This document shows, piece by piece, positions 1-14,225 of a DNA stretch of 17,851 bases. The DNA comes from Saprospiraceae bacterium UBA7328 (GTDB lineage: Bacteria; Bacteroidota; Bacteroidia; Chitinophagales; Saprospiraceae). The position numbers and the translations under genes were made by a program. Location of the stretch: the NCBI GenBank assembly GCA_002471345.1, contig DKPS01000014.1:1-17851 (forward strand). Reading direction: 5' to 3'. The stretch's first letter is position 1. The number at the start of each line of letters is the position of its first letter. Below the pieces are notes generated by a model. It was not told the origin of the DNA and searched no databases. It was given only the letters and a program-made list of their open reading frames with translations.

Positions 1-806
1 CCTCTGGATCCTGAAATTAGGAATCCAACTACAATGAGAATAAAAGAAACTGCATACAAGATCTTTCTTTTATCAACTCTTCCTGGCTGAAGAAGTAAAA
101 TTCCAGAGATTAATGCAAACATAGCTTGTGAAGCACCAAATTGCCCAGCATCTGAATAAAAAGAGAATGCTCTTAACACCCCAAACAAAATGTGTTCCTC
201 GTGATGATTTTCAGCCCATAACCAATAATCTTCAGCTGCGTCTGTCCCTATATATTTTTGTTTTATTGCCCAAAGTGCGCCAAGAACTGACAAGAAAATT
301 AATAAGTGAAGTATTTTAATTAGAAAATCAGGTTTCTTGACTAGCCAAAGAACTATAATGAATGTGAGTAATTGATACAAACCAATTCCTCTCATAGCAT
401 AAAACCAGGCCGTAATACTTCTGGCTTCAGGATTGGCAACTTCCAGCACTATATAAGCCATCCATATTACACTCCAGAGAACGATATCCTTACTAAAAAT
501 CGACCAATCAACCTTTCTGAATCCTCTCAATACTATACTTAGTATTGCCAAGACCAAAAAAATGTCTATTCCTAAGCCCCACTGAAATTTTATATATCTG
601 GTCAGACCAGAAATGAAAAAAGAAAGCACTACAGCAGTGATTAGTATCTTCATTGGGTTTTGAAATAAATTGACCGATGTTGCTAATGCTAGTGGGAGAA
701 TCAATAATATGATTCCTACTTTCAACCCCATTTTACCGATAATGATCCCAGAAATAACTGACAACACCATCAAAACAGCTAAAAACAGGAGACTTCCTGT
801 CTTCAT
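1..806 (-). CDS. O-antigen ligase/polymerase-like membrane protein (C-terminus beyond left edge)
   Basis: An open frame with no stop runs leftward from ATG 806 off the window edge, giving 268 residues. An upstream GTG at 839 is in frame, just after a TAA, but ATG 806 gives the better hydrophobic N-terminus. The protein is almost entirely membrane segments: two at the start, one after YIKFQWG, then several more, with a soluble loop (IGTDAAEDYWLWAENHHEE) typical of the large periplasmic loop. The segments SDAGQFGAS and ISGSR just at the edge match what I recall of Wzy_C / O-antigen ligase family proteins in Bacteroidota. The expected role is joining or polymerising lipid-linked oligosaccharide repeats at the outer face of the inner membrane. 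It is the last visible gene of the leftward polysaccharide unit, 154 bp after the glycosyltransferase. Whether it is a ligase or a polymerase cannot be decided from this part. Confidence 0.75.
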   Translation of the reverse strand, partial: MKTGSLLFLAVLMVLSVISGIIIGKMGLKVGIILLILPLALATSVNLFQNPMKILITAVVLSFFISGLTRYIKFQWGLGIDIFLVLAILSIVLRGFRKVDWSIFSKDIVLWSVIWMAYIVLEVANPEARSITAWFYAMRGIGLYQLLTFIIVLWLVKKPDFLIKILHLLIFLSVLGALWAIKQKYIGTDAAEDYWLWAENHHEEHILFGVLRAFSFYSDAGQFGASQAMFALISGILLLQPGRVDKRKILYAVSFILIVVGFLISGSR

Positions 807-960
807 ATATCCTGTTTCTTGTGTAATCAAATGGTTCACTTTGACTTATTTTTTAACAAATTTTAATCTAAATGCTGATGGAGTTCAGATCTTTCGTTTT
901 TTGGTATAATTCAGAAGAATATTGGAGGATATTGCCTGTATTCAGGAATATCAATTTGAC

Positions 961-2164: not shown

Positions 2165-4396
2165 TCAGATTTTATCTTTTATGGAAAAATTGAAGTTCAC
2201 CAAGTTTTTAATCCATCTTCGTGCTCTCGATCTTGATTTTGGCAGTTCACCTAAAAACTCTTCCATGCTTTCTAACCTTACCCCATTAAGCATTATGATT
2301 GGAGGCTTTCTTAATGATTCATTTAACAAATCAAGACTATATGCATCTGCCTTACTCCAAACCCTATTTGACCTACACACTAACAAAAAATCATTTGCGT
2401 CCTTGAATAAGTGAAGTGGAAAACTTGTACCAATTATTGCCGGAACTTCTATAATTACGTTTTGGTAATTAGACGCCCAACCATTTGGTCCTATACGATC
2501 CAACCAATTTTCGATACTTTTTGCCTCAACAAAAGATTCATACTCTTTATAATAAATTGTATCAGCGGTTAAGCCATGAATTGCTCCAGAAAAAGATTGT
2601 TCAGGTTCTAGGCACAAGACTTTCTGAATATCCTTTTGAAATCTCTTCTTAATTAGTTGTGATACAAATGAAACCCCTTCTTTACCTCTCATACTTGAAA
2701 CAATCATTATAAATGGATCCGAATTACTTCGTTTTTTATTTATTAAAAGTCTTTGATAAAGGATTTCAATTGCTCGATTTCGGATGGATAAAAAATTTAT
2801 TTGAGAAGGGTTTGTGAACCCCGTATTGGGATTGGGTAGTTTAGGAAGAACACCTGCAACTTCCAATTTTAGTCTATCTGCTACTTCAGAAGGAGTTTTC
2901 ATAGTATTGTCAAGGAACTCCATTAGGATTATTATTCCTAATGTTATAAATATCCCAACTGCGAACCCAACAAGAATCAATAAAACTCTTTTACTTCCAT
3001 TGTCTTTTATTGGTAAAAATGGAGCATCTAATATCCGTAGATTAGATGACATAATTGTATTTTGAAGATGAAGACGTGCTTGATTGAAACTGTGTAAATT
3101 TTCAAGATAGGCCTCCTCTGCAAGTGCAATTTCTCGTTCTATCTTTTTAAGTCTCGAACCCCAAGGTGCAAACTGAGCATAAATAGTTTGAAATTCTTCT
3201 TTTCTGCTATTGAGAGCATCTAGACGCGACTTTGATGTTTCAACTTGTATTACACTTTTTAACCAGCTTGAAAGCAATTCATCAGAAAGCAACCCTTCAG
3301 GTGTATACTTTATATTATGAGATTGAAGGGTAATGCTGTTAATCTCACTTTCTAATTGCTCACGTTGATTAATCCAGCTCGCTTTAGATGAATCATCATA
3401 TTTATCATTTGGACCTGAAAGTTCAAATAAGGTAAGTTTTTTTGTTATTTCTGAAAGCTGGTCTCGTTTTGATAATAGAGCATTATTCAATTCTGAGAGA
3501 AGTCCTCTATTTTTCAACTGAGAATCAATACGTTTCTTTGAAGAAATTGCACCCTGTAGTTGCATTTGTTCTTTTAACACCATTTCATCTAGATCTTCCT
3601 TTTTGTCTGCGATAAAACGAGTTTGCTCATAATAATTGATGATTTGGTTATCTACCCTAAACCGAAGCAATTTATCTTCTGCTAACTTTAATTTGTCCCT
3701 GCTTTCTCTAGTAGCTTCTTCAAAATACCCCAATACATCTTCTGATTGTCCCTCTTTAAGCAATCTGTGCTTTTCAAAAAAAACCTCACTGAGCAATTGA
3801 AGCGTCTTTCTACATACATAGGGATCCGATGTGGTGTAAGAGAACTCAATAAGATCACTTCCTCCTTTCCTGTTTACCCTAATTTTTTGAAGCTGCTCTA
3901 ATCCAAAGAATTGATGATCTGAATAGACTAATTCGATCAATGATCTATTGTTAAATGTATCTATCAGATACTCAAGATGGGTGATTGTTTTTTCAATGTT
4001 CTCCTGTTTTAAATCGTCATAACTTAATGAACCAGTAAAAACGGAGTTTATCTCTTCAAAACCTTCTTCACTAATCAACTCTACATCTGCTTCTTCAAGT
4101 TCAAGGTAATGAGCTATCAATCGTATAGATAACATTTCTAGAGTTTCAAAAGCCGTAGCTAGATTAATGAGATTTTCAATCTCATTCCTAGTGTAATCTC
4201 TATCTATTCTGCTATCTGAATTATGATTCTCAATATTATAACCAGATACAACACCTGTATTAATAACGGCTTTGGATGTGAATTGCTTTTCTTCATTAGT
4301 TGTAAGAAAGAAGATTATAGATGCAGTCAAGATTCCAATACAAAAAATGAGCAAGAATTTACTCACAATAATCTTAATAAATCTTTCTAAGCTCAT
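2165..4396 (-). CDS. GumC/Wzz-type polysaccharide co-polymerase with degenerate BY-kinase domain
   Basis: A 743-residue inner-membrane protein controlling chain length and export of the polysaccharide. The order is: N-terminal Wzz domain with membrane segment 1 (about 13-32); a periplasmic part with long charged helices (about 215-450) predicted to form coiled coils; a proline-containing stretch (LDAPFLPIKD, 456-465); membrane segment 2 (about 470-493); and a cytoplasmic domain (about 535-720) with the layout of a bacterial tyrosine kinase. That domain looks inactive. The Walker A place reads SSMRGKEGVSF (567-577) instead of a GxGK[ST] loop, the second Walker strand reads VLCLEPE (593-599) without the Asp, and the third reads VIIEVP (647-652). 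There is no C-terminal tyrosine cluster. The ATG overlaps the upstream stop by 4 nt (ATGA, 4396-4393), indicating translational coupling. Full-length PCP-2a kinases are of similar size. Confidence 0.85.
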   Translation of the reverse strand: MSLERFIKIIVSKFLLIFCIGILTASIIFFLTTNEEKQFTSKAVINTGVVSGYNIENHNSDSRIDRDYTRNEIENLINLATAFETLEMLSIRLIAHYLELEEADVELISEEGFEEINSVFTGSLSYDDLKQENIEKTITHLEYLIDTFNNRSLIELVYSDHQFFGLEQLQKIRVNRKGGSDLIEFSYTTSDPYVCRKTLQLLSEVFFEKHRLLKEGQSEDVLGYFEEATRESRDKLKLAEDKLLRFRVDNQIINYYEQTRFIADKKEDLDEMVLKEQMQLQGAISSKKRIDSQLKNRGLLSELNNALLSKRDQLSEITKKLTLFELSGPNDKYDDSSKASWINQREQLESEINSITLQSHNIKYTPEGLLSDELLSSWLKSVIQVETSKSRLDALNSRKEEFQTIYAQFAPWGSRLKKIEREIALAEEAYLENLHSFNQARLHLQNTIMSSNLRILDAPFLPIKDNGSKRVLLILVGFAVGIFITLGIIILMEFLDNTMKTPSEVADRLKLEVAGVLPKLPNPNTGFTNPSQINFLSIRNRAIEILYQRLLINKKRSNSDPFIMIVSSMRGKEGVSFVSQLIKKRFQKDIQKVLCLEPEQSFSGAIHGLTADTIYYKEYESFVEAKSIENWLDRIGPNGWASNYQNVIIEVPAIIGTSFPLHLFKDANDFLLVCRSNRVWSKADAYSLDLLNESLRKPPIIMLNGVRLESMEEFLGELPKSRSRARRWIKNLVNFNFSIKDKI

Positions 4397-5178
4397 TGGA
4401 CAGTATCAACAATTTTGGATGGAGAAGCACCAATAATTTCCTGAAGAAGAAGAAAGGATAAATTAGCCTCTGAATGAAAGTTCAGCAATTCATATTCTGC
4501 TCTGGAAAGTATACTTAATGCGGTCGTATATTCATTGATATCTAAATCTCCTTTTCTCATAAATTGCTCAGCATAATTAGTTGTCAATTTTAGAGATTCG
4601 ATCTCCTTAGCTTTAATGCCAATAGCCTTTATTTTAGTCTTAAGGACATTGCATTGTTTGATAATAACTTCTCTTATTGTTTGCTCAATAGCTTCTTTTT
4701 CATACTCCTCTATTCTCCGCTGATTTAAAACCTTATCATTCCGAACTTTCCGATTAAATAATTCTGAGATTGGGATTCGAGCTGACAATGTGAGATTGGC
4801 AATACTGTTATTACGGTTAGTCGTTCTGAAATCATTTATACCTAAGGACCCTTCAGTAGTATCCGTATAAAAACTAGAGCCGTACAAGTAAGTTCCACCT
4901 ACAGATATATAATCGCTCCATTTTCGATTATTTAATTTTAATTCGTTGTCATAGTTGGCTATCTGTATCTCTTTAGACTTCAGTAGTGGGGAGTGTATGA
5001 TTGCTAATTCCACCATCTGATCAATCGTCATCAATTGAGTAATGTCCGGATTTTCATAGTTTACTTCCATTACTGATTTCGAAGGTGATAGATTAAAATC
5101 CTTTTGGTCTTGACTTTTTAATTTTTTAGCAGGGCCAATCACTAAAACAAATGCAAGAAAAAGTAATTTTTTATTCAT
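4393..5178 (-). other. TolC-like segment with own start and signal peptide inside the fused ORF
   Basis: From ATG 5178 the frame encodes 261 residues: a positively charged MNKK start, a hydrophobic core, a likely signal peptidase site near LKS/QDQ, a helix with MTIDQMVELAIIHSPLL, beta-strand-like ISVGGTYLYGSSFY and NLTLSARIPIS, and two long charged helices ending in EIIGASP. This is the pattern of one OEP repeat; TolC proper has two per chain. It probably works in the outer membrane whether or not it is first made as part of the fusion. A one-base shift just upstream would close the acyltransferase at a TAA (in the CCCATTTAAATT stretch around 5200) and leave this as a separate gene. Confidence 0.55.
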
Positions 5179-6360
5179 AATGGATGTCAATAATTTAAAT
5201 GGGAAAAATGAAGATGACAATCGTTCTTTAGTCAGAGAAGACCAGCTTGGATCCATAAAAGGCTTTTCAATTAATAGGTAAAAAACACCTGATAGTATTA
5301 GCACAATTGGAATCCAAAAAATAAATTGAAAAAAGAATGAGACAAAAATGGAACTTGTAGATAGAATTGGTGCTGACCATTGTACAACTAACTCCATCAA
5401 GGGAAGATGGATCAAGTAAATTGTATAACACATTCCTCCTATGGCAGTAATCCATGGATTAGAAAAGTACTTGTTCATTATCATTCCATTAAAGACAGAT
5501 ATAAATAGTAAGCCTGTTGAAAATGAAAAAATCAATTCTTTATGCCATTCATTAGACCATGTACAGGCCATGAATATTAATGAAAGGAATCCTACTAAGT
5601 CCCATAAATAATTCTTTCTAAAAAATAAGATCTGACGATTCAGATAAAAGTCCGCAATTAAAAATCCTAGGAGAAAATGTTGTAGTTGACCTATTATAGT
5701 TGCTTTCCATGGCATTGCATTCCAACCAAACATATGTTGTAGAATAGGAATGAGGATAATAAATACAGTAATAAAAATTCTTCTTATTCTTTCATGAGAT
5801 ATAGAAAAATAACCATAAGCCAGAAATGGAGCTAAAAGATAAAATTGAAATTCAACTTCAAGAGACCATGCTACCGGATTAATAATAGAATAGGAATTAT
5901 AAATAAGACTGTGGCAATAAAAGATACTTGCCATATAATTACCTAGAATGTCACCAACAGGTGGACGACTTTGAATATAAAGGACAACTGTAAATAAAGT
6001 CATCCATATTATGAAAGGGGGTTCAAGTCTTGTAAGTCTCCTCTTCAAATAAGTCTTGTAAGATGGTTGTTTGCTCCGATTAAAAAAAGCCTTACCAAAT
6101 GGTAAACTGAGAATGAATCCACTGATTGCAAAGAATAAAAAGACACCAAACGTTCCCCTCCCAAAGATTGAAACTATATTACTTTCTGACCAGGACACTC
6201 CTCCTTCAATTGGCGTATATTTTATTATTCTCTCTGACAAATGCTGAAAGAGAACCGGAATAATAGCAACAAATCTCAACCCATCTATTTCATGGATATA
6301 TTTTCTGTTAGATGTAACTCGCCTTAATAATGTTGGAACCTTTTTTAGCTTTCTGAACAA
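4393..6360 (-). CDS. Acyltransferase-3 protein fused in frame to a half-length TolC-like protein
   Basis: One open frame of 655 codons that looks like two genes. Residues 1-394 are an acyltransferase-3 integral membrane protein: EIDGLRFVAIIPVLFQHLSE (24-43) carries the family's conserved His40, GRGTFGVFLFFAISGF follows (68-82), the KRRLTRLEPP basic motif is at 106-115, and about ten membrane segments end near IEKPF. Such proteins transfer acetyl or other acyl groups to sugars. Residues 395-655 begin with their own Met and a Bacteroidota-style signal peptide (MNKKLLFLAFVLVIG, cleavage likely before QDQK). They continue as a single outer-membrane efflux repeat of helices and strands, 261 residues against roughly 450 for a full TolC. 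No stop separates the parts. Either this is a real fusion, or translation restarts at ATG 5178, or one indel has removed the first stop. The end overlaps the co-polymerase start by 4 nt. Confidence 0.8.
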   Translation of the reverse strand: MFRKLKKVPTLLRRVTSNRKYIHEIDGLRFVAIIPVLFQHLSERIIKYTPIEGGVSWSESNIVSIFGRGTFGVFLFFAISGFILSLPFGKAFFNRSKQPSYKTYLKRRLTRLEPPFIIWMTLFTVVLYIQSRPPVGDILGNYMASIFYCHSLIYNSYSIINPVAWSLEVEFQFYLLAPFLAYGYFSISHERIRRIFITVFIILIPILQHMFGWNAMPWKATIIGQLQHFLLGFLIADFYLNRQILFFRKNYLWDLVGFLSLIFMACTWSNEWHKELIFSFSTGLLFISVFNGMIMNKYFSNPWITAIGGMCYTIYLIHLPLMELVVQWSAPILSTSSIFVSFFFQFIFWIPIVLILSGVFYLLIEKPFMDPSWSSLTKERLSSSFFPFKLLTSIMNKKLLFLAFVLVIGPAKKLKSQDQKDFNLSPSKSVMEVNYENPDITQLMTIDQMVELAIIHSPLLKSKEIQIANYDNELKLNNRKWSDYISVGGTYLYGSSFYTDTTEGSLGINDFRTTNRNNSIANLTLSARIPISELFNRKVRNDKVLNQRRIEEYEKEAIEQTIREVIIKQCNVLKTKIKAIGIKAKEIESLKLTTNYAEQFMRKGDLDINEYTTALSILSRAEYELLNFHSEANLSFLLLQEIIGASPSKIVDTVQ

Positions 6361-6650: not shown

Positions 6651-7025
6651 ATGCAATCTATTTTCATAGTTGATGACTCAGAAATGATGCGAGTATTCCT
6701 CGGTAAGTTGTGTGAAAAACATGGCGATGTACACCTCTTTAATAATGGAGAATCAATTCTAGCAGAACTTAATATTGGAAACATTCCTGACATTATAATT
6801 CTTGACTTGAATTTACCCGGAATAAATGGAATGCAAATTCTTGATATTCTTAACACTTATTATAAACATCACCATATCAAAACCTTTGTAGTCTCGGGAA
6901 TAGATAGTTCCGAAGAACGAATTGCATGTCTTGCCCTAGGAGCTGTTGATTTCATTGTTAAACCCTTCCACCCAAAAGAATTGGAGTATAAAATCTTAAA
7001 TGGATTGAATTTATCCATTCAATAA
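6651..7025 (+). CDS. Receiver-only response regulator
   Basis: A 124-residue protein that is a complete CheY-like receiver domain and nothing else. The acidic pair Asp8-Asp9 (VDDSEMMR), phospho-acceptor Asp52 (ILDLNLPGINGM), the Ser82 switch position (VVSG) and the invariant Lys104 (VKPFHP) are all present, so it should be phosphorylatable. There is no output domain and no kinase gene nearby. It is the first gene of the rightward unit, 31 bp before the sugar transferase, suggesting that phosphorylation signals adjust polysaccharide production, perhaps by protein contact with an enzyme or with a partner regulator encoded elsewhere. The target is unknown. ATG 6651 follows the -7-like box closely and leaves the first beta strand (IFIVDD) intact. 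Confidence 0.9.
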   Translation: MQSIFIVDDSEMMRVFLGKLCEKHGDVHLFNNGESILAELNIGNIPDIIILDLNLPGINGMQILDILNTYYKHHHIKTFVVSGIDSSEERIACLALGAVDFIVKPFHPKELEYKILNGLNLSIQ

Positions 7026-7888: not shown

Positions 7889-9247
7889 ATGCAAATTACA
7901 GTAATAGGAACAGGTTATGTAGGTCTGGTGACCGGAACATGTCTCGCAGAAACAGGAAATCAAGTTGTTTGTGTTGATATCGACGAAAACAAAATCATGT
8001 GTTTGAATAATGGTGAGACGCCAATTTATGAACCAGGATTAGAAACAATTCTTAAACGAAACATTCAACTTGGGAATCTTCAATTCACAACGAATCTCAA
8101 AGAAGGAATATCCAATACTGATGTCATTTTTCTTGCATTACCCACTCCTCCTAAAGAAGATGGTTCTGCTGATTTGTCCTATTTATTAAATGTCACACAT
8201 GAACTTGTAAATCTCATTCAATCATACACTGTCATTGTAACAAAAAGTACTGTACCTGTTGGTACAGGTGATCGAATCGAAGACATTTTATCGGATCATT
8301 TAGAATCAGATCTTTTTGATGTTGTATCCAATCCTGAATTTCTAAGGGAAGGTTGTGCTATAGAGGACTTTATGAGACCAGATAGAATAGTGATCGGTAC
8401 ATCCAGCAATGAGGCGAAAGAAATAATGATGAAGATTTATAGGCCCTATGTCAGACAGAACAATCCAATCATTTATATGGATCGAAGGTCCTCGGAAATT
8501 ACAAAGTATGCCTCCAATAGTTATCTAGCTACTAGAATTTCATTCATGAATGAAGTAGCTAATATCTGCGAAGCTGTCGATGCCGATGTAGATTTAGTTC
8601 GAATGGGTATGGGATCAGACTCTAGGATTGGAAAACGATTCTTATTCCCAGGTATAGGCTATGGTGGAAGTTGCTTTCCAAAAGATGTAAAAGCTCTTCT
8701 AAATACAGCTTCACAAAATGGATACGATTTTCAAATATTAGATTCAGTAAATTCTGTTAATTCTGGACAGAAAAAGATTCTTACCAAGAAAATTTTGGCA
8801 CACTTCAACGGATCCATTCAAGGTAAATCAATTGCAATGTGGGGCTTATCATTCAAGCCTAATACTGATGATATCAGAGAAGCCCCAGCTCTCGTCATGA
8901 TTGATGAGTTTATCAAAAGGGGTGCTCATGTTAAAGTTTTTGATCCAGAAGCTATGATAAATGTTAGGAGAATATATGGAAATAAACTGATATATGGAAT
9001 AAATCAATATGAGATACTTGAAGGATCGGATGCCCTTGTTATTGCTACCGAATGGAGCAACTTCAGAACTCCTGATTTTAGATATATGAAAAATTTGATG
9101 AGTCAACCATTAATTTTTGATGGAAGGAATATGTATGATATAGAAGAATTAAAATCTTTAGGTTTCAATTATGAATGCATTGGTAGAAATTCAGGCCTTA
9201 CTTTAGGAATAAACCAAGGCCATCACAAACTTAGTCTTGCAAGCTGA
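7889..9247 (+). CDS. ugd: UDP-glucose 6-dehydrogenase
   Basis: A 452-residue cytoplasmic enzyme of the UDP-glucose/GDP-mannose dehydrogenase family, most likely oxidising UDP-glucose to UDP-glucuronate with two NAD+. The N-terminal Rossmann fold has ITVIGTGYVGLVTG (3-16); PTPPKEDGSADLSY is the substrate/NAD loop; STVPVGTG and NPEFLREGCAIEDF are central-domain motifs; the active-site segment GYGGSCFPKD carries the nucleophile Cys262; and WGLSFKPNTDDIREAP marks the C-terminal nucleotide-binding domain. GDP-mannose dehydrogenase is the alternative, but the FPGIGYGGSCFPKD form favours the UDP-glucose enzyme. As last gene of the rightward unit it implies that the polymer contains uronic acid or a pentose made from it. 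No clear terminator hairpin follows. Confidence 0.93.
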   Translation: MQITVIGTGYVGLVTGTCLAETGNQVVCVDIDENKIMCLNNGETPIYEPGLETILKRNIQLGNLQFTTNLKEGISNTDVIFLALPTPPKEDGSADLSYLLNVTHELVNLIQSYTVIVTKSTVPVGTGDRIEDILSDHLESDLFDVVSNPEFLREGCAIEDFMRPDRIVIGTSSNEAKEIMMKIYRPYVRQNNPIIYMDRRSSEITKYASNSYLATRISFMNEVANICEAVDADVDLVRMGMGSDSRIGKRFLFPGIGYGGSCFPKDVKALLNTASQNGYDFQILDSVNSVNSGQKKILTKKILAHFNGSIQGKSIAMWGLSFKPNTDDIREAPALVMIDEFIKRGAHVKVFDPEAMINVRRIYGNKLIYGINQYEILEGSDALVIATEWSNFRTPDFRYMKNLMSQPLIFDGRNMYDIEELKSLGFNYECIGRNSGLTLGINQGHHKLSLAS

Positions 9248-10523: not shown

Positions 10524-11132
10524 ATGATAGATACTATTATATTCGATTTAGGCAATGTATTGATCAGATGGGATCCTGGTGTTGTATACAAGGATTATTT
10601 CAAAACAGAAGACGAATTAAACTATTTTTTCGAACATGTATGCACTCTACAATGGAATGAAGAGCAGGACAAAGGACGACCAATAGAGACCGCCACTGAA
10701 CTTTTAGTAAAAGAACATCCTTCTCATGAAGAAGCGATCAGAATGTATTATGGCAGATGGAAAGAGATGATTCTTGGTCCAGTAGATGGCACTCCTGAGA
10801 TTCTAAATTCTCTTCACCAAAAACAGAATCAGCGATTGTTGGCGCTGACCAACTGGTCCGCAGAATTATTCCCTTATGCACTTGAAAATTTTGATTTTTT
10901 GGGTTTCTTCGAAGGAATTCTAGTTTCAGGTGAAGAGAAAATGAAGAAACCTGATCTTGAGATTTATAGACGCTTTGAAGAAAAATTTCCAATTGATAGA
11001 ACGAAATCTGTATTTATTGATGATAGTGCAAAAAATATAGCTGGAGCAAAAGAAGCAGGTTGGAATGTCATTCACTTCAAAAATGCTTCTCAGCTTGAAA
11101 CTGAATTAAACAACCTAGGAATAACCGTCTAA
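10524..11132 (+). CDS. HAD-superfamily phosphatase, YihX-like
   Basis: A 202-residue cytoplasmic HAD hydrolase of subfamily IA. Motif I is FDLGNVL with nucleophile Asp8, motif II is Thr109 (ALTNWS), motif III is Lys142 (MKKPDLEIY) and motif IV is the Asp166-Asp167 pair (FIDDSAKNI). Residues 15-85 form the helical cap. The second Asp of the usual DxD motif I is Gly10; the same FDLGNV is known in YihX, a sugar-phosphate phosphatase, so the change does not by itself mean inactivity. The substrate is probably a small phosphate ester. It is followed 15 bp later by the alpha/beta hydrolase, so the two are probably co-transcribed. The start at 10524 places the first beta strand immediately, as expected for the family. 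Confidence 0.88.
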   Translation: MIDTIIFDLGNVLIRWDPGVVYKDYFKTEDELNYFFEHVCTLQWNEEQDKGRPIETATELLVKEHPSHEEAIRMYYGRWKEMILGPVDGTPEILNSLHQKQNQRLLALTNWSAELFPYALENFDFLGFFEGILVSGEEKMKKPDLEIYRRFEEKFPIDRTKSVFIDDSAKNIAGAKEAGWNVIHFKNASQLETELNNLGITV

Positions 11133-11147
11133 AAATTACTAAAAATT

Positions 11148-12086
11148 ATGATACCAGCACATGAAACTTTTAACGGAACCTTTCCATTTGAACCTCATTA
11201 CAATGAAGTCAATGGATTTAAAATGCATTATGTGGATGAAGGTGAAGGCGATGTAATTATATGTCTTCATGGAGAACCAACATGGGGTTATTTATATAGA
11301 AATTTCATTCCAAGTCTATCGCAAACACATAGAGTCATAGTTCCTGATCACATGGGTTTTGGTAAAAGTGAAACACCTAATAATAAGGAATATGTATTTG
11401 CAACTCACGTGCAAAATCTGATCAATTTTATAGATGATTTAGAGTTAAAAGACATCACATTCGTTGCTCAAGATTGGGGAGGACCAATTACAGGTAATTT
11501 GGCACTTCGTCGTCCTGAATTAGTAAAAAGGTTCTGTCTTATGAATACCATGTTGGGCTATAGCGGCGCTGTAAGAGATGCTTCTTCTTCAACAACAAAA
11601 CCTCCTAAACTCACCGAATCCACTTGGTTTCAATGGGTATTGAATAGTCACAAAAGTGGAAAGTATTTTGAAGTGTTGAATAATCTGGGAGATAATGTTT
11701 TAAGCCTCATGAAAAAGTTAGGTTTTGAAAATTCTACTGCGGTAGATGATAATTGGATAATGGCCTATTCCATGCCATTTAGTTCTTTAGATGAAACTAA
11801 AGCGGCAATTGAATTTCCACTTGATGTTGCACTGGACCGGGTTTCTGCTTTTGTCATGGAAGGTTTAAAAATGGGAAATCTTGAAAAAGTAAGAAGCAAA
11901 CCCGCTATGCTTGCTGAAGGAATGAAAGACAAAGCTATGCCACCTGCTCTGGTAATTTCAGACTTTCAACGGCTCTTTCCTGAAGGACCAGTAGTGGAAA
12001 TTCCTAATGCAGGCCATTTTTGCCAAGAAGATACACCTGAAACACTGGTAGCTTTAATTCAAATGTTCATACAAATGACAGACTAA
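11148..12086 (+). CDS. Haloalkane dehalogenase-like alpha/beta hydrolase
   Basis: A 312-residue alpha/beta hydrolase that closely follows the haloalkane dehalogenase subfamily I pattern of DhlA. The oxyanion-hole motif is HGEPTWGYLYR (41-51), the nucleophile is Asp109 in VAQDWGG with halide-type Trp110, the acid is Asp261 in EGMKDK, and the base is His290 in NAGHFCQED. The aspartate nucleophile (not Ser) and the spacing D109/D261/H290 nearly equal the 124/260/289 layout I recall for DhlA. Known members cleave carbon-halogen bonds with water; some relatives with the same residues lack measurable dehalogenase activity, so the natural substrate is open. The second halide-binding Trp of the cap is not certain (Trp160 or Trp164). 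It lies between a HAD phosphatase and a flavin reductase-like gene with gaps of 15 bp each. No signal peptide is seen. Confidence 0.85.
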   Translation: MIPAHETFNGTFPFEPHYNEVNGFKMHYVDEGEGDVIICLHGEPTWGYLYRNFIPSLSQTHRVIVPDHMGFGKSETPNNKEYVFATHVQNLINFIDDLELKDITFVAQDWGGPITGNLALRRPELVKRFCLMNTMLGYSGAVRDASSSTTKPPKLTESTWFQWVLNSHKSGKYFEVLNNLGDNVLSLMKKLGFENSTAVDDNWIMAYSMPFSSLDETKAAIEFPLDVALDRVSAFVMEGLKMGNLEKVRSKPAMLAEGMKDKAMPPALVISDFQRLFPEGPVVEIPNAGHFCQEDTPETLVALIQMFIQMTD

Positions 12087-12101
12087 ACTATAATTAATCC
12101 A

Positions 12102-12596
12102 GTGTCAATTCTTACCATTTCAGGATCAATAAGAAAGAACTCTACAACAGTTAGTTTTTTAGAAGCAATTGTTCAGCCCTTTCCTCATTTTGAATTTGAA
12201 CGTTTCAACCTTGATCATATTCCAATGTTTCATCCTGATGCATATGACTATACAGTTCCGAAAGAAGTCATTGATTTTAAAGAAAAAATTAAAACTCATG
12301 ACTCTGTAATCATAGCTACTCCAGAATATATCCACAACATACCAGCTGTACTGAAAAATGCACTAGAATGGACTACACAAACTGGAGAGTTTGCTGGCAA
12401 AAAAATACTAGCTATTACTTATACACCTAATGCTCCAAGAGGAGAAAGAGCTATGACCAGTCTAAAGTTCTGTCTGAATGCATTGGATGCCAATGTAGTA
12501 GCAACAATGGATTTGTATCATGATGCAATTGTAAATAATAAACTTTCAGTTGAAGCCAAAAATGTAATCACTGAAGCCCTTGACCTGCTTCACTAA
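12102..12596 (+). CDS. NADPH-dependent FMN reductase-like flavoprotein
   Basis: A 164-residue flavodoxin-fold protein of the NADPH-dependent FMN reductase family (quinone, azo or chromate reductases belong here). The phosphate-binding loop is GSIRKNST (8-15) after the first strand, and the flavin-contact segment TPEYIHNIPAVLKNALEW (73-90) is the family's most typical motif. GTG at 12102 is the start; it places the first strand at residue 2 and no ATG lies nearby in frame. It begins 15 bp after the dehalogenase-like gene and ends 7 bp from the convergent secreted-protein gene. It probably reduces quinones or other small electrophiles with NAD(P)H; the substrate is not predictable. Confidence 0.88.
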   Translation: MSILTISGSIRKNSTTVSFLEAIVQPFPHFEFERFNLDHIPMFHPDAYDYTVPKEVIDFKEKIKTHDSVIIATPEYIHNIPAVLKNALEWTTQTGEFAGKKILAITYTPNAPRGERAMTSLKFCLNALDANVVATMDLYHDAIVNNKLSVEAKNVITEALDLLH

Positions 12597-12603
12597 ATGA
12601 AAT

Positions 12604-13266
12604 TTACTCGGCATTGTCCAAAGCAACTAATAAAGCCAATAAGTCCCATTGGTTCTTCATCTTGTTCTTTGTTTTCTTCAAAGTTTTCTCAGCATTCTTT
12701 CCAAGTATAGATAGGACTTCTTTCTTTTTGATTTTGACTTCATGGGGCTTGCCATCCATTTCAAGAATGAATTCCTCCTTTTTTCTGATGTATTGCTTTA
12801 CCATTGTTTTTCCAGGAGTATTATATACTCTCTCATCTGTAATTGCATGAATACTTTGAAATAAAGAATATCTATCAGAAAGAAAGAGTGTAACTAGAAA
12901 TCCATTTGGCTTTGTACTATCAGGAATCATACTGAGCAGATTCTCTTCATATTCAAAATCTACCTTCCGAATTATATTCTTATCCAATTCGATAAATTTA
13001 TCTCCTTTAAAAATCTCAACAGATTCAGAAAGTAGATTGACATTTACATCATTTAACTCAAATGCTTTTTCGTCGCCTTTCACATATACCTTAGCGACTT
13101 GGTTATTTTCAAAATAATATGGATTTCCAGTGTAGTCACCGTATCTATCATAATCAATTTCCTGAGTATTATTTAGAAAAACTTGTGATGATAATTGCAC
13201 ATAAAATACAGTAAATAGCATCACTAAAAGGAATTTGATTTTACAATTATTTGGCATCTTACTCAT
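12604..13266 (-). CDS. Secreted protein of unknown function, paralogue A
   Basis: A 220-residue protein that I cannot place in a named family. An N-terminal signal peptide (CKIKFLLVMLFTVFYVQLSS, cleavage likely before Gln28) sends it to the periplasm or surface; ATG 13257 (residue 4) is an alternative start. The mature part is rich in charged residues and predicted beta strands, with landmarks YYFENN (50-55), VEIFKGDKFIELD (83-95), YNTPGK (148-153) and YIRKK (159-163), and a basic C-terminal helix with LKKTKNKMKNQWDLLALLVAL (196-216). It is clearly homologous along its whole length to the gene at 13581-14225, with the best-kept part at the C-terminus. The start lies 15 bp after the apparent remnant at 13282-13551. 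Confidence 0.8.
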   Translation of the reverse strand: MSKMPNNCKIKFLLVMLFTVFYVQLSSQVFLNNTQEIDYDRYGDYTGNPYYFENNQVAKVYVKGDEKAFELNDVNVNLLSESVEIFKGDKFIELDKNIIRKVDFEYEENLLSMIPDSTKPNGFLVTLFLSDRYSLFQSIHAITDERVYNTPGKTMVKQYIRKKEEFILEMDGKPHEVKIKKKEVLSILGKNAEKTLKKTKNKMKNQWDLLALLVALDNAE

Positions 13267-13281
13267 AATTTTTAATAAGTA

Positions 13282-13551
13282 CTAAAATTCACATTTTAAA
13301 ATAAACCTAGATGTGGAAATGGACTCTTTGAAGAGGGAAAATGCAAAACCGACACCTAAGAGAATTTGATCTATGGCTGCTAATCCTATGCTATTTAAAG
13401 CAACGCCTACTGATCATAATGTAAGATTTCCTTTGGCCCCTTTGGAAACTGAAGGACCAAAAAGAAAAGAATTAGATCATAGATTTTGGGTAAACCATAC
13501 AAACAACTACACCAAGAAATCACTATCCACAAATGATACTTCACATTCATA
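13282..13551 (-). pseudogene. Possible decayed C-terminal gene fragment
   Basis: In the roughly 300 bp between the two paralogues, one leftward frame gives a protein-like stretch of about 90 codons ending at a TAG (13284-13282) but broken by one TAG and two TGA codons. Its last uninterrupted part reads SVGVALNSIGLAAIDQILLG, then VGFAFSLFKESIS, and ends SRFILKCEF with a terminal Phe. Just before it come LFGPSVSKGAKGNLTL and a TGA where Trp would fit. The alternating hydrophobic pattern and terminal aromatic suggest a membrane or beta-barrel C-terminus. Window genes use TGA as stop (for example at 4393 and 2165), so this is not recoding. It may still be chance. Confidence 0.3.
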
Positions 13552-13580
13552 TCAGAAAAATATGAAGCTGTTCATTTATC

Positions 13581-14225
13581 TTAACTATTTTGCTCTAAAG
13601 CAGTAAGTAATGCCACTACATCCCATTCATCTTTAAGTTTGTTTTTCGTTTTCTTAGCAACTCTATCCGCTTCACTACCAAGAAGTTTGAGAATACCCTT
13701 TTTTTTCAATTCTACGGTGTGTGGCTCATCTTTGATATAGAGAGTATAGGTATGTTTATTCCTCACAAAATTTCTTTCATACACCTTCCCAGGGATATTG
13801 TAAATCCTATTTTCAATTGTTGGAAGTATCTCATGAAAAAATCTGTATTTAGGGGTTTCATAAAGATTAAAAATGAATCCATCTGTAAGTGGAGATGGTA
13901 TCATTGATATCTCATGTCCATTTTTATTAAATGCTACTTTGGTAAATTTCTTTCTGGCAATTTCTACAATTTTCCCACCTCTATAAACTTCTATGGCCTT
14001 AGTCACCAGATTAAGGTTTGCTTCATTTGCTTTAAAGGTTTGCTCCGCACCTTTGATGTACAACTCAGTTTCTAGAAAATCCTCGAAATAGAAAATTTGC
14101 CCAGAATAACTATCAAATCTTTCCCCTAATATTTTTTGCTTTTTAGATAATTGACCAAATAGTATCAAAGAAGTGAAGAGGAGAACCGAAGTAAAAAGTG
14201 TTTTCATCTCTATATTTATTTTCAT
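13581..14225 (-). CDS. Secreted protein of unknown function, paralogue B
   Basis: A 214-residue secreted protein of the same unnamed family as the gene at 12604-13266. Two starts are possible: ATG 14225, or ATG 14207 (MKTLFTSVLLF), which gives the more usual signal peptide; cleavage is likely before Gln25 (ILFG/QLSKK). Shared landmarks are FYFEDF, IEVYRGGKIVEIA, the SMIPS segment, YNIPGK, FVRNK and the C-terminal KKTKNKLKDEWDVVALLTALE. No lipobox, no repeats and no known catalytic motif are visible. The pair probably arose by tandem duplication. An expected role would be structural or binding at the cell surface, but nothing in the neighbours points to a pathway. Confidence 0.8.
   Translation of the reverse strand: MKINIEMKTLFTSVLLFTSLILFGQLSKKQKILGERFDSYSGQIFYFEDFLETELYIKGAEQTFKANEANLNLVTKAIEVYRGGKIVEIARKKFTKVAFNKNGHEISMIPSPLTDGFIFNLYETPKYRFFHEILPTIENRIYNIPGKVYERNFVRNKHTYTLYIKDEPHTVELKKKGILKLLGSEADRVAKKTKNKLKDEWDVVALLTALEQNS

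Follow-up and report, generated by a model that had tools for sequence, protein, structure and literature searches.

An acyltransferase joined in frame to half of a TolC in Saprospiraceae: a proposed processed polyprotein for polysaccharide export

In Saprospiraceae bacterium UBA7328, a single gene joins an acyltransferase-3 (AT3) enzyme to half of a TolC-like channel and directly precedes a gene for a Wzc-like polysaccharide co-polymerase (PCP). The parts are of known kinds; what appears to be new is the combination of an AT3 with a half TolC. From the unbroken frame and its conservation, signal-like features at the junction, the gene neighborhood and the predicted folds, we infer a processed polyprotein: signal peptidase I would release the half-TolC to serve as a polysaccharide exit, leaving an inner-membrane acyltransferase to act on the polymer. 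We put the probability of this reading at about 70%.

Domains and predicted fold

The gene lies at positions 4393..6360 (minus strand) of the 17,851-nucleotide stretch that was analyzed (contig DKPS01000014.1; hereafter the window). Its 655 codons run in one frame from a TTG start to a TGA stop, limits that rest on the open reading frame and on a relative of the same length, P0002 (a cluster at 80% identity, likewise 655 aa), which starts with Met and keeps the internal Met discussed below. This bears out the sequence-only reading of a complete acyltransferase-3 and a half TolC joined with no stop between them. That reading had also pointed to a stop one frame away near the junction; stops indeed occur in both other frames near 5190-5200, a trivial feature.

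Pfam PF01757 covers residues 23-360 (5281..6294, minus strand; E 8.8e-31, 107.6 bits against a curated cut-off of 31). Passages of PMC7448272 give the AT3 hallmarks as R/K-X10-H in TMH1 and RXXR in TMH3, and both are present, as R29-X10-H40 and R108LTR111. H40, R108 and R111 are invariant in an 84-row alignment of fused proteins, and R29 is at least 90% conserved. The AT3 part has the transmembrane acyltransferase fold and is probably a sugar-acylating inner-membrane enzyme. The second domain, residues 447-641 (4438..5022, minus strand), is one stretch of PF02321, the OEP repeat (E 1.7e-12, 48 bits against a cut-off of 22).

An AlphaFold2 model built from the 84-row alignment (mean pLDDT 88.0, pTM 0.66) shows a membrane domain of several helices and a single TolC repeat, the latter with a helix (458-484), two long strands (485-503 and 509-527; 4780..4908, minus strand) and two further helices (531-602 and 608-643). 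Residues 410-432 fall below pLDDT 50. The strands would be expected to lie in the outer-membrane barrel. The order of helix, two long strands and two helices is that of the TolC/OprM factors (PF02321), and the fold matches OprM and CusC. Unlike those proteins, the half-TolC has one repeat rather than two, neither Pfam nor the model revealing a second, forms the tail of a membrane enzyme and adjoins a Wzc-like gene. Pfam found only PF01757 and PF02321 in the fused protein and in 77 scanned relatives, with no SGNH domain and no Poly_export domain (PF02563, the mark of Wza-type OPX proteins) in any of them. The window's own genome contains a full-size TolC gene elsewhere; no second copy of the fused protein was found in it.

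The fusion among relatives

The fused frame recurs in 11 of 398 same-family genomes, spread over six genera, while adjacent but separate AT3 and half-TolC genes occur in 10 of the 398, in five genera; the 398 are an even draw from a larger group and include the window's own genome. A profile search against 5.8 billion proteins scored the 7998 candidates with the most shared words and gave 4029 matches. Among the best 120 of these are 91 fused-length clusters with the junction motif, a share that is not unbiased, since fused proteins went into the profile and the 120 are only the top of the list. An earlier word-based protein search with residues 395-655 alone, a method of limited reach, had found two clusters only. 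Both PF01757 and PF02321 are present in all 77 fused proteins scanned of the 91. The alignments A2 and A5 comprise 84 and 77 of the 91 clusters, the omissions being mostly near-copies, with A5 trimmed for size as well. In a named collection, of which the best 80 loci were considered, cultured Reichenbachiella versicolor (L043) carries the fused gene, whereas in the ten Cytophagales-type relatives that were read, among them Algoriphagus and Roseivirga, the genes are split and either share an ATGA overlap or are separated by at most about 15 bases. Such names as the listed relatives bear ("acyltransferase family protein", "peptidoglycan/LPS O-acetylase OafA/YrhL" or "hypothetical protein") hide the channel half.

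The sequence-only reading had allowed that an indel removed a stop. A single indel would suffice for an assembly error or recent frameshift to join two genes, given that 6 of the 10 same-family split relatives (L002, L003, L017, L019, L021 and L022) have an ATGA overlap that sets the two genes in different frames. Against this, no stop interrupts the two domains in 11 same-family genomes, and the fusion is found in many independent genomes and in the cultured R. versicolor, which rules it out as an artifact. Both halves are moreover under purifying selection in L012/L013 and L025/L027, the two pairs in which dS can be used for each half (dN/dS 0.09-0.14 across both domains). We accordingly give an artifact or recent frameshift next to no credence. 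Nor are all homologs encoded as two genes, a case named beforehand as one that would speak against a true fusion; fused and split genomes number 11 and 10 among the 398. Because of the ATGA overlaps in another frame, an indel is possible as an old evolutionary event.

Identity in the linker between the domains is 28-50% in five of six pairs of close relatives. As a separate observation, L014 and L015 have AT3 halves that are 96% identical and half-TolC halves that are 67% identical, reflecting either a mosaic history or very uneven evolution inside one gene.

Phylogenies are consistent with repeated change between the two states. AT3 trees require at least three fused/split changes; a quick tree has 80 rows, covering 56 of the 91 fused clusters and lacking L052 and L060 of eight intended lone-AT3 rows, and a careful tree has 74, six rows having been dropped. 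The half-TolC tree (91 rows) requires at least four. In it, AT3-linked and AT3-less half-TolCs separate with an SH-aLRT of 97, apart from the long-branch AT3-less row L127, and when it is rooted on the AT3-less rows several early branches are fused and form a polytomy. The repeated event may be either fusion or fission.

The junction as a probable internal signal peptide

Past the last AT3 helix the protein presents the successive elements of a signal peptide: a net positive linker that would act as a cytoplasmic n-region (residues 370-397; 5170..5253), a hydrophobic core (residues 399-411; 5128..5166) and a predicted cut site for signal peptidase I, S416|Q417 (LKS|Q; 5110..5115), all on the minus strand. 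As parts of PMC5837995 and PMC10653852 describe, most signal peptidase I substrates of Bacteroidetes carry Gln directly past the cut, the "Q-rule", and the junction here, with LKS|Q, has the full set of substrate features: a charged n-region, a hydrophobic core, and small-x-small followed by Gln.

These features are conserved across the fused proteins. The linker is net positive in 91 of 91 (median +5), and small-x-small|Gln follows the segment in 85 of 91 clusters under a strict rule and in 90 under a loose one. Elsewhere in these proteins, membrane segments pass in 33 of 725 cases (strict) and 47 of 725 (loose). Shuffled linkers pass at 20.9% (strict) and 33.6% (loose), and since a third of shuffles satisfy the loose rule, weight rests only on the strict rule and on positional conservation. 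In the 84-row alignment the linker is otherwise poorly conserved, yet Q417 reaches at least 90% conservation; in the R. versicolor protein P0094 the Gln is missing from the site (SKA|D). In split relatives a similar segment serves as an ordinary N-terminal signal, and the window's own genome encodes a match to the signal peptidase I family.

A natural comparison is with the AT3-SGNH proteins (OafA, OafB and OatA), which likewise have an N-terminal AT3, an added hydrophobic segment and a C-terminal domain outside the cytoplasm. Here, by contrast, that domain is a half TolC rather than SGNH, and beyond the segment lies a conserved site of the signal peptidase I type, where the AT3-SGNH tail stays attached. 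Sections of PMC9558356 describe AT3-SGNH fusions as placing their periplasmic domain by way of an eleventh helix. By analogy, the segment could stay uncleaved as an eleventh helix, anchoring the half-TolC in the inner membrane so that the protein bridges both membranes, and a hydrophobicity of 1.4-3.0 across the fused clusters would suit a membrane helix. Yet the eleventh helix of AT3-SGNH proteins passes the strict rule in 1 of 110 cases and the loose rule in 7 of 110, against 85 of 91 (strict) here; of the 120 best listed, those shorter than 560 aa and three without an anchor were left out, and the 110 counted include non-Bacteroidota, in which the Q-rule does not hold. The conservation of the site, together with the use of a similar segment as a plain N-terminal signal in split relatives, makes a stable tether improbable. 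Cleavage of the internal signal by signal peptidase I, one of the options raised by the sequence-only reading, is the best reading of the strict-rule counts, the controls and the conserved Q417.

Another of those options was that the ribosome restarts at an internal ATG, residue 395 (5176..5178, minus strand), which may be a relic or a secondary start. Two products would then arise, the half-TolC being translated alone from the ATG at 5178 and the in-frame join being incidental. The context here (ATG AAT AAA AAA) is well placed, P0002 keeps the Met, and a Met lies within 12 residues ahead of the segment in 38 of 91 fused clusters, with a mild enrichment just ahead of the segment (4.0%, against 1.8% further upstream). 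But no Met lies between the AT3 and the hydrophobic segment in 41 of 91 clusters, a count that becomes 35 when the search extends four residues into the segment and 26 when it takes in the whole of it. At the DNA level the linkers of L013, L015 and L018 have no ATG, although their TTG codons could act as starts. For these reasons restarting at ATG is not the general route, and as a full account of the join it is highly improbable; in the window's own lineage, where the ATG persists, it may still supply extra half-TolC.

Gene neighborhood and a probable Wzc-like partner

The stop of the fused gene overlaps the next start by ATGA (4393..4396, minus strand), and the product of this next gene (2165..4396, minus strand; 743 aa) is a Wzc-like PCP that matches the Wzc fold over its full length. 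The pairing, which was outside the view of the sequence-only reading, is recurrent: a Wzc-like gene follows all 11 same-family fused loci, 9 of 10 same-family split loci (the tenth contig ends inside the half-TolC) and all 20 loci checked in the named collection. Across Bacteroidota a PCP is adjacent at 19 of 22 half-TolC loci, against 0 of 8 loci of full-size TolC; at the other 3 of 22, none was detected within 1.5 kb. As a side observation, the window's Wzc-like protein reads EGV at its Walker A-like site (residues about 567-576), where 15 of 16 aligned sequences read EGK, a replacement that may leave its nucleotide-binding domain inactive.

Beyond the PCP lie a glycosyltransferase (Pfam PF13692; 961..2163, minus strand) and a membrane protein that runs off the window (3..839, minus strand); the latter has no Pfam match itself and sits where the syntenic L042 cluster has its Wzy_C gene (PF04932). 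On the other side, Pfam identifies a single-domain response regulator (6651..7025, plus strand), which is the same neighbor as in L042, a bacterial sugar transferase (PF02397; 7057..7860, plus strand) and a UDP-glucose/GDP-mannose dehydrogenase family protein (7889..9247, plus strand). Sugar transferases of the PF02397 type start polysaccharide synthesis on a lipid carrier. The L042 cluster encodes a Wzx-type flippase, Wzy_C and a PCP, and none of its 10 scanned proteins contains PF02563. In 1 of 17 genomes the same contig has a PF02563 gene within 50 kb, where it adjoins another PCP; contig ends limit several of the 17.

Several further arrangements were observed. In L128 (positions 10844-13955; contig C12 of G283), some 14 kb away from the fused gene, another PCP gene, with GNVR and Wzz matches, adjoins a PF02563 exporter, placing both kinds of exit on one contig. 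Half-TolC genes with no AT3 gene next to them occur in several Bacteroidota families (L125 4184-7220, L127 2352-5390, L126 2223-5161 and L133-L149), most of them beside a Wzc-like gene. By eye, three similar short tandem genes upstream of the Reichenbachiella cluster (L043 5147-6918) resemble single-domain response regulators, and two adjacent proteins in the window (12604-13266 and 13581-14225, minus strand; 220 and 214 aa), which resemble each other and look secreted, read like a tandem duplicate.

Proposed mechanism

In the processed polyprotein that we favor, the ribosome would deliver a single chain. Its AT3 part would enter the inner membrane so that the C-terminus of this part faces the cytoplasm, after which the positively charged linker and the hydrophobic segment, acting as an internal signal peptide, would take the half-TolC through Sec. 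A cut by signal peptidase I ahead of Q417 would leave the acyltransferase in the inner membrane, with an eleventh helix, and set free the half-TolC, which, possibly with an N-terminal pyroglutamate, would travel to the outer membrane. Because the half-TolC amounts to one OEP repeat, a ring would need roughly double the subunit number of trimeric TolC: six, or a larger number if it is to match a Wzc-like octamer. The ring would dock on the Wzc-like co-polymerase encoded next and, taking the role of a Wza-type protein, serve a Wzx/Wzy-type polysaccharide pathway as its exit through the outer membrane. The acyltransferase would acylate the polymer or its repeat units.

That the half-TolC is a polysaccharide exit is our proposal from its gene neighborhood. 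The same processing might instead supply a channel for other cargo, either a small molecule or a protein. TolC relatives include known channels for efflux and for type 1 secretion, and most of these genomes have PF02563 exporters elsewhere (18 of 21 in one set, 15 of 17 in another). However, the frequent adjacency of a PCP speaks against other cargo, as does the finding that Pfam detects no ABC, RND or adaptor family in the window genes beside the fused gene or in the ten L042 neighbors, and we consider this alternative unlikely. The Wza-Wzc capsule machine offers a parallel in the Wzc-like partner, with the full-length fold match, and in the Wzx/Wzy-type cluster; the difference is that the half-TolC stands in the place of PF02563, a domain that none of the examined clusters showed next to it.

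A precedent for the processing is FbcH, the cytochrome b/c1 precursor of Bradyrhizobium, in which one gene with an internal signal is cut into two envelope proteins. Its products are respiratory and both of the inner membrane, unlike those expected of the AT3–half-TolC protein. To our knowledge, no bacterial polyprotein yielding one inner- and one outer-membrane protein has been described. We found no published AT3-TolC fusion or TolC-Wzc polysaccharide module in open-licence PMC; in the available text of the AT3 review PMC9558356, the combination does not appear and the word "TolC" occurs 0 times.

Implications

The proposed AT3–half-TolC polyprotein is widespread, and it points to a Wza-independent polysaccharide exit in Bacteroidota. 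In its broadest form, which we hold to be about an even proposition, the idea is of an export machine in this phylum that sets a Wzc-like co-polymerase on a ring of single-repeat TolC, of the type that preceded duplication, with no Wza-type protein. In one large branch the channel would be the tail of the polymer's own acyltransferase, released by signal peptidase, such that the inner- and outer-membrane proteins are made in equal numbers. A living single-repeat relative of TolC also bears on the origin of the two-repeat TolC.
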